A DNA stretch of 64,000 nt, taken from Micromonospora ureilytica. Lineage in GTDB: Bacteria; Actinomycetota; Actinomycetes; Mycobacteriales; Micromonosporaceae. The notes beneath the pieces are model-generated. The model was not told where the DNA came from. It saw only the letters and a list, made by a program, of their open reading frames with translations, and made no database searches. Positions 20,240 through 23,352 of the stretch are shown one piece after another; position 1 is the first letter of the stretch, and the number at the start of each line of letters is the position of its first letter. Location: contig NZ_JADOTX010000001.1 in assembly GCF_015751765.1 (NCBI RefSeq), forward strand, positions 1,922,001 through 1,986,000, in the 5' to 3' direction. The position numbers and the translations under genes are program-made.

Positions 20240-21898
20240 ATGGCGAACCCGGTGATCCTGACCGTCGACGACGACCCCGTGGTGTCCCGGGCGGTCGCCC
20301 GGGACATCCGGCGCCGCTACGGCGACCGCTACCGGGTGCTGCGTGCCTCCTCCGGGCCGGAGGCGCTGGACGCGTTGCGAGAGGTCAAGCTGCGCGGCGA
20401 ACCTGTGGCGTTGCTGCTGGCCGACCACCGGATGCCGGAGATGACAGGCGTCGAGTTCCTCGAAGCGGCCATGGACATCTTCCCGGCCGCCCGCCGGGTG
20501 CTGCTCACCGCGTACGCGGACACCGACGCCGCGATCGAGGCCATCAACGTGGTCGACCTGGACCACTACCTGCTCAAGCCCTGGCACCCGCCGGAGGAGA
20601 AGCTGTACCCGGTGGTCGACGGGCTGCTGGAGGCGTGGGCGGTCACCCCGGACGCGGCCAGCGCCGAGATCCGGGTCGTCGGGCACCGTTGGTCGGCGCC
20701 GTCGTTCAAGGTCCGTGACTTCCTGGCCCGCAACCTGGTGCCGTACCGATGGCTGTTGTCCGATGATCCGGAGGGCGTCCGGCTGCTCGACGCGGCCGGG
20801 GCCACCGAGGCGGACGTACCGCTGGTGGTGACGCCCGAGGGCAAGGCGTTGATCGCCCCGAGCGAGGCCGAGTTGGCCGCGCTGGCCGGGCTGACAGTGG
20901 TGCCGGCGTGTGACTTCTACGACCTGGTGGTGATCGGCGGCGGCCCCGCCGGTCTCGGCTCGGCCGTGTACGGCGCGTCGGAGGGGCTGCGCACCGTGCT
21001 CGTGGAACGGCGTGCGACCGGCGGTCAGGCCGGGCAGAGCAGCCGGATCGAGAATTACCTGGGCTTCCCCGATGGTGTGTCCGGCGCCCAGTTGACCGAT
21101 CGGGCCCGGCGGCAGGCGGTCAAGTTCGGTGCCGAGCTGCTCAGTGCCCGGGAGGTGGTCGGTCTCAGCGAGGCCGGCGGCGCCCGGCTGCTGCGCTTCG
21201 GCGACGGCACCGAGATCGCCGCGCACACGGTGGTGCTGGCCACCGGCGTGTCGTACCGGGTGCTCGACGCCCCGGGCCTGGCCGACTTCACCGGGCGGGG
21301 GGTGTTCTACGGCGCCGCCGCCACGGAGGCGCCGAGCTGCGTCGAGCAGGATGTCTACATCGTCGGCGGGGCCAACTCCGCGGGCCAGGCGGCGGTCCAC
21401 TTCTCCCGGTACGCGTCGAGGGTGCACCTGCTCATCCGTGGTGCGGACCTGACCGCCTCGATGTCGCGTTACCTGATCGACCAGCTGGAACGGATCGACC
21501 GGATCACCGTGCACCCGCACACCGCAGTGGTCGGCGGGGCCGGGGACGGTCACCTGGAACGGCTCACCCTCTGCGACACCCGCACCGGGGAGGCCCGCTC
21601 GGTCGACACCTCCTGGCTGTTCATCTTCATCGGCGCGGAGCCCCGTACCGACTGGCTGGACGGGGTGCTGGTCCGCGACGGGCGCGGTTTCATCGTGACC
21701 GGCCCGGATCTGCTCGCCGGAGGACGGCGGCCGGCCGGCTGGTCGCTGTCGCGCGACCCGTACCACCTGGAGACCAGCGTGCCGGGCGTGTTCGCCGCCG
21801 GGGACGTGCGGGCCGAGTCGGTCAAGCGGGTCGCTTCGGCCGTCGGCGAGGGTGCGATGGCCGTGTCGCTGGTGCACCGATACCTGGAGGCTCAATGA
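20240..21898 (+). CDS. Receiver-domain / thioredoxin-reductase-like flavoprotein fusion
   Basis: 552 residues from ATG at 20240. Residues 1-125 form a response-regulator receiver: acidic D10-D12, phosphoacceptor D62 (LLADHRMPEMTG) and K near 114 (LLKPW). About 140-215 is a thioredoxin-like segment, and from about 225 comes a TrxB-like flavoprotein: VVIGGGPAGLGSAVYGASEG (FAD), RATGGQAGQSSRIENYLGF, VYIVGGANSAGQAAVHFSRY (NADPH) and VFAAGDVRAESVKRVASAVGEG. The redox CxxC of classical TrxB (CATCD) is replaced by AAATEAPSC, so normal disulfide chemistry is doubtful. It overlaps the cNMP-histidine kinase start by 4 bp, so the two probably form a phosphorelay pair. Confidence 0.9.
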   Translation: MANPVILTVDDDPVVSRAVARDIRRRYGDRYRVLRASSGPEALDALREVKLRGEPVALLLADHRMPEMTGVEFLEAAMDIFPAARRVLLTAYADTDAAIEAINVVDLDHYLLKPWHPPEEKLYPVVDGLLEAWAVTPDAASAEIRVVGHRWSAPSFKVRDFLARNLVPYRWLLSDDPEGVRLLDAAGATEADVPLVVTPEGKALIAPSEAELAALAGLTVVPACDFYDLVVIGGGPAGLGSAVYGASEGLRTVLVERRATGGQAGQSSRIENYLGFPDGVSGAQLTDRARRQAVKFGAELLSAREVVGLSEAGGARLLRFGDGTEIAAHTVVLATGVSYRVLDAPGLADFTGRGVFYGAAATEAPSCVEQDVYIVGGANSAGQAAVHFSRYASRVHLLIRGADLTASMSRYLIDQLERIDRITVHPHTAVVGGAGDGHLERLTLCDTRTGEARSVDTSWLFIFIGAEPRTDWLDGVLVRDGRGFIVTGPDLLAGGRRPAGWSLSRDPYHLETSVPGVFAAGDVRAESVKRVASAVGEGAMAVSLVHRYLEAQ

Positions 21899-23352
21899 GC
21901 ACGGATAGTGGCCGGCTGACACCGGCGCAGTTGCGCACCCTGTTCCTGTTCGAGTCCCTCGACGACAGGCAACTCGAGTGGCTGGCCGAGCGCGGCCGGG
22001 TCGAGCAGCGTGCCGGGGGCACCCTCGTATACGCCGAGGGGGAGCCCGGGACCTGCTTCTTCGTGCTGGTGCGCGGTGCGGTGGCGCTGAGCCGCCAGGT
22101 GCGCGGAGACGAGATCGAGGTCAGCCGCACCGACCAGCGCGGCGTGTACGGCGGGGCGGTCCAGGCCTACCTGGGTGACCAGGTCGACCAGATCTACCGC
22201 AACAGCATGCGGGCGGTGGTCGACTCGGACTTCTTCGTGCTGCCGGCGGAGGACTTCGCGTACGCCCTGCGGTCCTGGTTCCCGATGCCCATGCACCTGC
22301 TGGAGGGGCTGTTCCTCGGCCTGCGGAACAGCCAGGCCATCGTCGGCGAACGGGAGCGGCTGTTGGCGCTCGGTTCGCTGTCGGCGGGGCTGACCCACGA
22401 GCTGAACAACCCGGCCGCGGCGGCGGTACGGGCCACCTCGGTGCTGCGGGACCGGGTCGCCGGGATGCGGCACAAGCTCGCGATGGTCGCCGACGGTCGG
22501 CTCGACGGGCGCGCCCTGCATGGCTTGGTCTCCTTGCAGGAGGAGGCGGTAGCCCGGGTGGCCACCGCGCCGAAGTTGACCCCGATGGAAACCGCCGACG
22601 CCGAGGACACCCTCACCGACTGGCTGGAGGAGCACGGGGTCAACGGTGCCTGGGACCTGGCCCCGATCCTGGTCGGCGGTGGTCTCGACGCGGCCTGGTT
22701 GGCGCAGGTGAAGGCCGCGGTCGGCGCCGCGGACCTGGAGGCGGCGGTGCGCTGGCTCACCTACACCGTCGACACCGAGCTGCTGATGCGCGAGATCGGC
22801 GACGCGGTCACCCGGATCTCCGGGCTCGTGGACGCCGCCAAGCAGTACTCGCAGCTGGACCGCGCGCCGCACCGGGTGGTGGACGTGCACGACCTGCTCG
22901 ACGCCACGCTCGTGATGTTCAAGGGCAAGATCCCCCCCGAGGTCAAGCTGGTCCGCGAGTACGACCGGAGCCTCCCACCGGTGCCGGCGTACGCGGCCGA
23001 GCTGAACCAGGTGTGGACCAACCTGATCGACAACGCGTTGGGCGCGATGGGGGAGAAGGGCGTGCTGACCGTCCAGACCGGACGGGTCGGCGACCAGTTG
23101 GCGGTGGAGGTCACCGACACCGGGCCGGGTATCCCGCCGGAGGTGCGTCCACGCATCTTCGAGCCGTTCTTCACCACGAAGCCGGTCGGCTCGGGCACCG
23201 GTTTGGGGTTGGACATCTCGTACCGGATCGTGGTGCACAAACACCACGGCGACATCCGGGTGGAGACCGAGCCGGGCCGGACCACGTTCCGGGTCCTGTT
23301 GCCGATCACGGAGGGTGCACCGGACGTGCCACGCGACGCGCCGGCTACCTAG
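21895..23352 (+). CDS. Sensor histidine kinase with N-terminal cyclic-nucleotide-binding-like domain
   Basis: 485 residues, ATGA-coupled to the receiver-TrxR gene. Residues 15-140 are a cNMP-binding/Crp-like domain (LFLFESLDDRQLEWLAERG, then CFFVLVRGAVALSRQVRG). No membrane segment is present. The kinase core has H168 in GSLSAGLTHELNNPAAAA, an N-box NQVWTNLIDNALGAMGE, the G1 box VEVTDTGPGIPPEVRPRIF and a G2-like box GSGTGLGLDISYRIVVHKHHG. It would phosphorylate the receiver of its upstream partner. The ligand of the N-domain is unknown and may be a cyclic nucleotide or none. Confidence 0.92.
   Translation: MSTDSGRLTPAQLRTLFLFESLDDRQLEWLAERGRVEQRAGGTLVYAEGEPGTCFFVLVRGAVALSRQVRGDEIEVSRTDQRGVYGGAVQAYLGDQVDQIYRNSMRAVVDSDFFVLPAEDFAYALRSWFPMPMHLLEGLFLGLRNSQAIVGERERLLALGSLSAGLTHELNNPAAAAVRATSVLRDRVAGMRHKLAMVADGRLDGRALHGLVSLQEEAVARVATAPKLTPMETADAEDTLTDWLEEHGVNGAWDLAPILVGGGLDAAWLAQVKAAVGAADLEAAVRWLTYTVDTELLMREIGDAVTRISGLVDAAKQYSQLDRAPHRVVDVHDLLDATLVMFKGKIPPEVKLVREYDRSLPPVPAYAAELNQVWTNLIDNALGAMGEKGVLTVQTGRVGDQLAVEVTDTGPGIPPEVRPRIFEPFFTTKPVGSGTGLGLDISYRIVVHKHHGDIRVETEPGRTTFRVLLPITEGAPDVPRDAPAT

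Follow-up and report, generated by a model that had tools for sequence, protein, structure and literature searches.

What might a two-component response regulator control when its output domain is a thioredoxin reductase-like flavoprotein without a CxxC motif? This question is raised by a gene pair in a stretch of 64,000 nucleotides (the window, C1:1922001-1986000) from the 7.1 Mb genome of Micromonospora ureilytica. Open reading frames (ORFs) and Pfam matches define gene A (20240..21898; 552 residues), which encodes a receiver domain (REC), a degenerate glutaredoxin-fold domain (Grx) and a TrxB-like flavoprotein domain, and gene B (21895..23352; 485 residues), which encodes a soluble histidine kinase. 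The two reading frames share an ATGA overlap and, like all of their features given below, lie on the plus strand. The interpretation favored here, to which about an even chance is given, is that A would be a phosphorylation-gated module for flavin adenine dinucleotide (FAD) and NAD(P)H that no longer performs thiol-disulfide exchange. The architecture, the conserved pairing of the two genes, the retained FAD motifs and the loss of both CxxC motifs across the clade are apparent from the sequence comparisons described below.

The TrxB-like FAD/NAD(P)H domain comprises residues 226-550 of A (20915..21889), as supported by Pfam PF07992 (Pyr_redox_2, residues 227-538, E 1.6e-33) and by invariant FAD motifs. 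Residues G233, G235, P236, G238, G261, G262, Q263, G521 and D522 were invariant in 75 aligned sequences, a set that includes members with degenerate receivers, and the same was true of R400, R530 and H546; judged by these columns, A retains the FAD-binding motifs of a thioredoxin reductase. The CxxC motif of that enzyme is absent from A and was found in none of the flavoprotein domains of 159 receiver-type or cyclic nucleotide monophosphate (cNMP)-type relatives. The position of its first cysteine falls on G358 in both alignments used, with glycine in 54 of 54 receiver-type rows, and that of the second falls on A361 in the full-length alignment or, with a one-residue gap, on T362 in the domain alignment, where the aspartate following the TrxB motif falls on E363. 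The ORFs, the Pfam matches and the lack of any CxxC in A agree with the initial annotation, which had described a receiver fused to a TrxB-like flavoprotein without this motif. Its pairing of the usual CATCD with AAATEAPSC is correct with regard to the loss of the motif, while the cysteine quoted there, C367, is a separate residue five or six positions beyond the second CxxC position (GAAATEAPSC, residues 358-367; 21311..21340).

C367 is the sole conserved cysteine among the three present in A (224, 367 and 445), being kept in 115 of 116 close sequences, and A could thus be a disulfide or persulfide reductase in which this single residue replaces the CxxC. The induction of sco7298 (there named trxB3) under polysulfide in Streptomyces coelicolor, described in the available text of the source (PMC9952706), would fit such an activity if its product SCO7298 is the counterpart of A. 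In less redundant sets, C367 was present in only 28 of 54 receiver-type rows and in 10 of 14 cNMP-type rows, and six kinase-paired relatives carry another residue there: V in L132, Y in L159, H in L175, Y in L176 and L177, and F in L178. Because of the receiver-type count and these six replacements, C367 is unlikely to be a general stand-in for the CxxC; its distance from the second CxxC position also argues against a single-cysteine reductase, which is considered distinctly unlikely.

Still less probable, and the least probable explanation considered, is that A is a true thioredoxin reductase acting through other cysteines. Homologues carry source names such as 'thioredoxin reductase (NADPH)' and 'fused response regulator/thioredoxin-disulfide reductase', and A scores 211.1 bits against TIGR01292, a value below the curated cut-off of 343.45. 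With no CxxC in A, and with cysteines 224 and 445 kept in only 7 and 29 of 116 sequences, respectively, this activity was rejected on the missing cysteines, and to call A a thioredoxin reductase is probably a misnomer. A separate TrxB with CATC is encoded elsewhere in the window genome. The YpdA model TIGR04018 gave 54 bits (cut-off 339.9), and A reads GGGPAG where YpdA would have the cysteine of GGGPC, which we take to be its hallmark.

Profile comparison identifies the linker between the receiver and the flavoprotein (residues ~143-222; 20666..20905) as a degenerate glutaredoxin domain. When 42 core linkers were compared with 7 live Grx domains from fusions of glutaredoxin with thioredoxin reductase (Grx-TrxR), hhalign returned a probability of 99.5% (E 3.9e-23), compared to 1.5% and 1.0% for receiver profiles used as controls. 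Pfam Glutaredoxin was matched at E <= 0.01 in 5 of 70 family members, a count that does not show where in the protein the match lies, and was not matched in a scan of A itself; the best match in a PDB profile search was the mycobacterial glutaredoxin 2lqo, which was not significant (E 0.079). The live motif WCPDC reads WSAPS in A, with S152-A-P-S155 (codons 20693-20704) at the CxxC position. Serine was found at 152 in 113 of 116 sequences and at 155 in 109 (cysteine at 155 in 2), and none of the 159 linkers of receiver- or cNMP-type relatives has a CxxC. P194 presumably occupies the place of the redoxin cis-proline.

To place these losses, a flavoprotein-domain tree of 99 rows was built, comprising 68 of REC or cNMP type, 7 Grx-TrxR fusions and 24 canonical TrxB, with a midpoint root. 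Each group was well separated, with support of 100/100, 100/99 and 100/98, respectively. The Grx-TrxR fusions (L167, L168 and L181-L185), which come from the same phylum, retain CPDC and CATC in 7 of 7, and with TrxB as the outgroup they are sister to the 68-row clade, in which no CxxC occurs. The simplest reading of this topology would be a single loss of both CxxC motifs after the Grx fusion. The change at position 530, within the C-terminal KRVASAVGEG (residues 529-538; 21824..21853), goes with the cysteine loss across the aligned rows: arginine is found in 68 of 68 CxxC-less rows and glutamine in 31 of 31 CxxC-bearing rows. H546 is likewise histidine in 68 of 68 CxxC-less rows and in 0 of 7 Grx-TrxR rows; R400 is not specific, as arginine is also present in 21 of 24 TrxB. 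The branching order of the REC and cNMP types was not resolved in the tree. A cNMP domain precedes the same core in 11 of 11 scanned members of the cNMP-TrxB family, which suggests that the flavoprotein core takes exchangeable inputs; 14 rows were filed as cNMP type, including L139, L189 and L192, which were unscanned; the protein annotated for L139 could not accommodate the domain, given its length.

The input side of A has the sequence features of a two-component response regulator. Its receiver (residues 6-118; 20255..20593; Pfam PF00072 Response_reg, E 1.1e-12) carries an acidic pocket, a phospho-acceptor aspartate, a threonine and a lysine, with D10, D11, D62 (codon 20423-20425), T90 and K113 (codon 20576-20578) found in every one of the 116 sequences aligned, the window included, and D12 in 115. 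The homology search with A gave at least 8000 scored candidates, all at E <= 0.001, so the observation is not a product of chance; among homologues with a name, those nearest to A come from Micromonospora. Gene B adjoins gene A in all 80 loci retained as the best of at least 377 in a scan of genome contigs, of which 31 are titled Micromonospora and others include Streptomyces, Frankia, Rhodococcus, Nocardia and a Mycobacterium metagenome-assembled genome. This context conservation, which the initial annotation had proposed examining, together with the receiver and kinase sequences, supports its reading of a cognate two-component pair with an output other than DNA binding. Similar pairs were correctly anticipated in actinobacteria, an understatement given that the pair is also found in a plasmid collection in Deinococcus, Nostoc, Gloeothece and Caballeronia (B confirmed by BLAST) and that the REC-TrxB class is already in print. 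Three loci (L132, L134 and L179) have two or three B-like kinase ORFs near a single A gene, and glgX and an AGE-family epimerase gene lie upstream of the pair in L133 and L135, both cyanobacterial.

Presence of the kinase also tracks the state of the receiver. Relatives with enough downstream sequence were counted, five loci with short downstream sequence being excluded, and a receiver was scored as intact if it had D62, K113 and an aspartate at 11 or 12. Among 124 intact receivers, B was located within 3.5 kb in 118 and adjacent in 117, compared to 0 of 16 degenerate receivers with B nearby. The divergent relatives without a kinase (L140-L158 and L169-L174) include many with decaying receivers, and clustering of the neighborhoods of 25 of these loci yielded no family in more than 3.

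Kinase B combines a predicted phospho-acceptor, H168 in HELNNP (22396..22398; histidine in 125 of 125 sequences), with a HATPase_c domain (residues 368-472; 22996..23310; Pfam PF02518, E 5.4e-26), the two elements expected of a histidine kinase; Pfam HisKA was matched at a sub-threshold 12 bits (cut-off 26.9). Its N-terminal sensor is a cNMP-binding-like domain (residues 41-125; 22015..22269) that exceeds the PF00027 cut-off (30.5 bits vs 27.5; E 3.6e-7). The best 19-residue Kyte-Doolittle means were 1.71 for A and 1.29 for B, with no strongly hydrophobic segment in either protein, in agreement with the earlier description of a kinase with a cNMP-like N-domain and no membrane part. On the assumption, taken from the CRP pocket, that a phosphate-binding cassette should hold a glutamate and an arginine, the pocket of B is atypical: the usual glutamate, at position 88, is present in 12 of 125 sequences and is alanine in B, and position 103, placed by eye as the likely site of the arginine, is Asn in 61, Ala in 22, His in 13, Gly in 12 and Thr in 7 of these sequences, with asparagine in B. 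Because both positions are atypical, B probably binds no cyclic nucleotide, and the case for cyclic-nucleotide sensing is weakened. Residues ~190-298 of B (22462-22788) form a long stretch between the H-box and the part matched by solved kinases, suggesting an insertion in the dimerization and histidine phosphotransfer (DHp) hairpin.

Gene neighborhoods were also compared. Across 27 representative loci, with families counted if present in at least 5, zf-UBP, a small zinc-finger protein, was the commonest recognizable family besides A, B and their antisense frames (9 of 27), and one further family, unrecognized, occurred in 5 of 27. The zf-UBP family was also found beside cNMP-type genes in 5 of 13 loci; in one case, a Rhodococcus plasmid (L138), genes for clpB, trxA and zf-UBP lie upstream of a cNMP-TrxB fusion. 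At the genome level, a match to A at E <= 1e-60 was present in 95 out of 396 genomes sampled from the phylum. In 7 of these the match was a Grx-TrxR fusion, with motifs checked, and the other 88 were taken as CxxC-less, judged from the matches fetched. A zf-UBP match was present in 68 of these 88 genomes compared to 27 of 308 others, a contrast uncorrected for phylogeny or genome size, and physical linkage is for that reason the safer evidence: 27 pairs of a CxxC-less relative and zf-UBP lie within 4 kb of each other, in 24 genomes and 12 families, where a uniform-placement estimate predicts less than 1. The zf-UBP protein is thus a candidate partner of A.

Some zf-UBP domains are joined to membrane transporters. 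Eight frames (L219-L224, L229 and L230), picked from 17 zf-UBP frames for their hydrophobic runs and thus implying no rate, were fused to a Na+/H+ exchanger (seven) or to LtrA (one), with the zf-UBP domain C-terminal. The annotation places LtrA ~2 kb beyond the Deinococcus pair and immediately after the Nostoc pair. BLAST detected exchangers in L081 and L098, at the single place covered by L010/L186, and in L225, which had been fetched for its zf-UBP; LtrA was detected in L132 and L133, with a weak match in L044. Enrichment beside TrxB genes is not claimed from these counts, which had no control and serve as a lead only. In the window genome, an orphan and apparently partial CxxC-less TrxB-like ORF (L186, 5041-5883, minus strand) lies beside a Na+/H+ exchanger ORF (L186, 5774-7609, plus strand). 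A role in anti-phage defense was also considered; neither A nor B had a PADLOC match at E <= 0.001.

These observations can be assembled into a conditional mechanism. An intracellular cue would be sensed by B through its cNMP-like domain, B would autophosphorylate at H168, and the phosphate would pass to D62 of A. The receiver would then gate the FAD/NAD(P)H module through the degenerate glutaredoxin domain, and hydride would be transferred from NAD(P)H to the flavin. Instead of relaying electrons through cysteines, the module would react directly at the flavin with a non-disulfide acceptor or partner, possibly the zf-UBP protein. In favor of this mechanism are the conserved adjacency of A and B, the invariant FAD motifs, R400, R530 and H546 beside the lost cysteines, the arginine at 530 that goes with this loss, the CxxC-bearing sister family, the separate CATC-bearing TrxB of the window genome, the exchangeable inputs of the core, and the induction of sco7298 by polysulfide (PMC9952706) and by acid shock (PMC2631018).

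The main rival, a tentative one with appreciably less than an even chance, is that A holds both FAD and NAD(P)H without turnover and serves as a silent redox sensor. Its conformation would then depend jointly on the state of the flavin and on whether D62 is phosphorylated, and would determine the recruitment of a partner, for example zf-UBP. Loss of both disulfide centers, FAD motifs that remain invariant even where the receiver is degenerate, and zf-UBP as a recurrent neighbor are all consistent with such a sensor. That neither R530 nor H546 varies in the 68 CxxC-less rows suggests instead that chemistry has been kept, a finding with which sensing is still compatible.

Several points weigh against a phosphorylation-gated module. 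The HRR nucleotide motif of TrxB is IRG in A, and therefore nucleotide preference, and even hydride transfer, is uncertain. Those intact receivers that lack B, six in all (L141, L142, L144, L145, L149 and L153), fall within the divergent kinase-less set to which the degenerate receivers also belong, so the correlation between receiver and kinase reflects mainly one clade-level split with few independent events. Regarding the partner, zf-UBP is absent from 20 of the 88 genomes with a CxxC-less relative, and the single zf-UBP match in the window genome sits 1.3 Mb from the pair, where it overlaps the end of an exchanger ORF. Finally, the sco7298 induction concerns transcript levels in another genus, and SCO7298 is a presumed ortholog of A. 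The earlier interpretation is supported in part; it had missed the degenerate glutaredoxin domain, the clade-wide cysteine loss, the zf-UBP association and the adjacency of B to intact receivers only.

A broader proposal, speculative and unlikely as it stands, is that the redox-dead Grx-TrxR core would serve generally as a flavin switch gated by signals, responding to phosphorylation in REC fusions and to a ligand in cNMP fusions. Via zf-UBP it would act on transporters of the membrane, among them Na+/H+ exchangers and LtrA, and thereby couple the control of ions or pH to the redox state. The class is widespread, with its 88 of 396 sampled genomes, yet is often named thioredoxin reductase. If a gated module is correct, such names mislead, and a flavin module directly under two-component control would be an unusual output, for which the zf-UBP association offers the first concrete partner candidate.

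The A/B pair is a typical representative of a class that is catalogued and functionally uncharacterized. As far as the available texts go, SCO7298 appears in a review of S. coelicolor among regulators of the TrxB class, with kinase SCO7297 as its pair (PMC9739842), a cyanobacterial census holds a TrxB regulator class with one member (PMC9953108), and an archaeal census gives a Mycobacterium-like combination of REC and thioredoxin reductase (PMC5847659). Shared class and kinase pairing are the reasons for equating SCO7298 with A. The accessible portions of two studies also indicate that sco7298 alone is still induced in an adpA mutant, its promoter being among the AdpA probes (PMC9952706), and that its transcript rises after acid shock (PMC2631018). 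Within the text available from the open-access literature searched, neither data on the reaction of the REC-TrxB class nor its zf-UBP association were found, and the doubly degenerate Grx-TrxR output was likewise not encountered.

Comparison with known systems sets out what A shares and what it has lost. SCO7298/SCO7297 resembles A/B in having REC fused to TrxB and a regulator-kinase pair; the class is known there by name, and the available text mentions neither a Grx domain nor CxxC loss (PMC9739842). Canonical low-molecular-mass thioredoxin reductase (TIGR01292) has a homologous domain and the same FAD motifs, whereas A lacks CxxC, has an altered HRR and arginine for glutamine at 530, and carries extra N-terminal domains. 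The Grx-TrxR fusions share the Grx-TrxB order and the sister position in the tree, and L167 and L168 have a similar C-terminal GDVRSGSTK..ASAVGEG; unlike A, they keep both CxxC motifs, and the two scanned have no receiver. The cNMP-TrxB fusions have the same CxxC-less core, linker domain and zf-UBP neighbors, with a cNMP domain in cis rather than a receiver and kinase. AhpF also has an N-terminal extension before a TrxR-like domain, but with cysteine pairs in both parts according to the portion available (PMC8945050), whereas neither part of A has one. The TrxR-like ferredoxin/flavodoxin reductases share with A a TrxR fold without CxxC. Their C-terminal helix carries an FAD-stacking residue, whereas A ends soon after the last TrxB segment, 3 residues past HRYL, and to judge from its sequence would lack this helix. 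In the text available, these reductases indicate that CxxC-less proteins of this fold can be active enzymes (PMC10294844).

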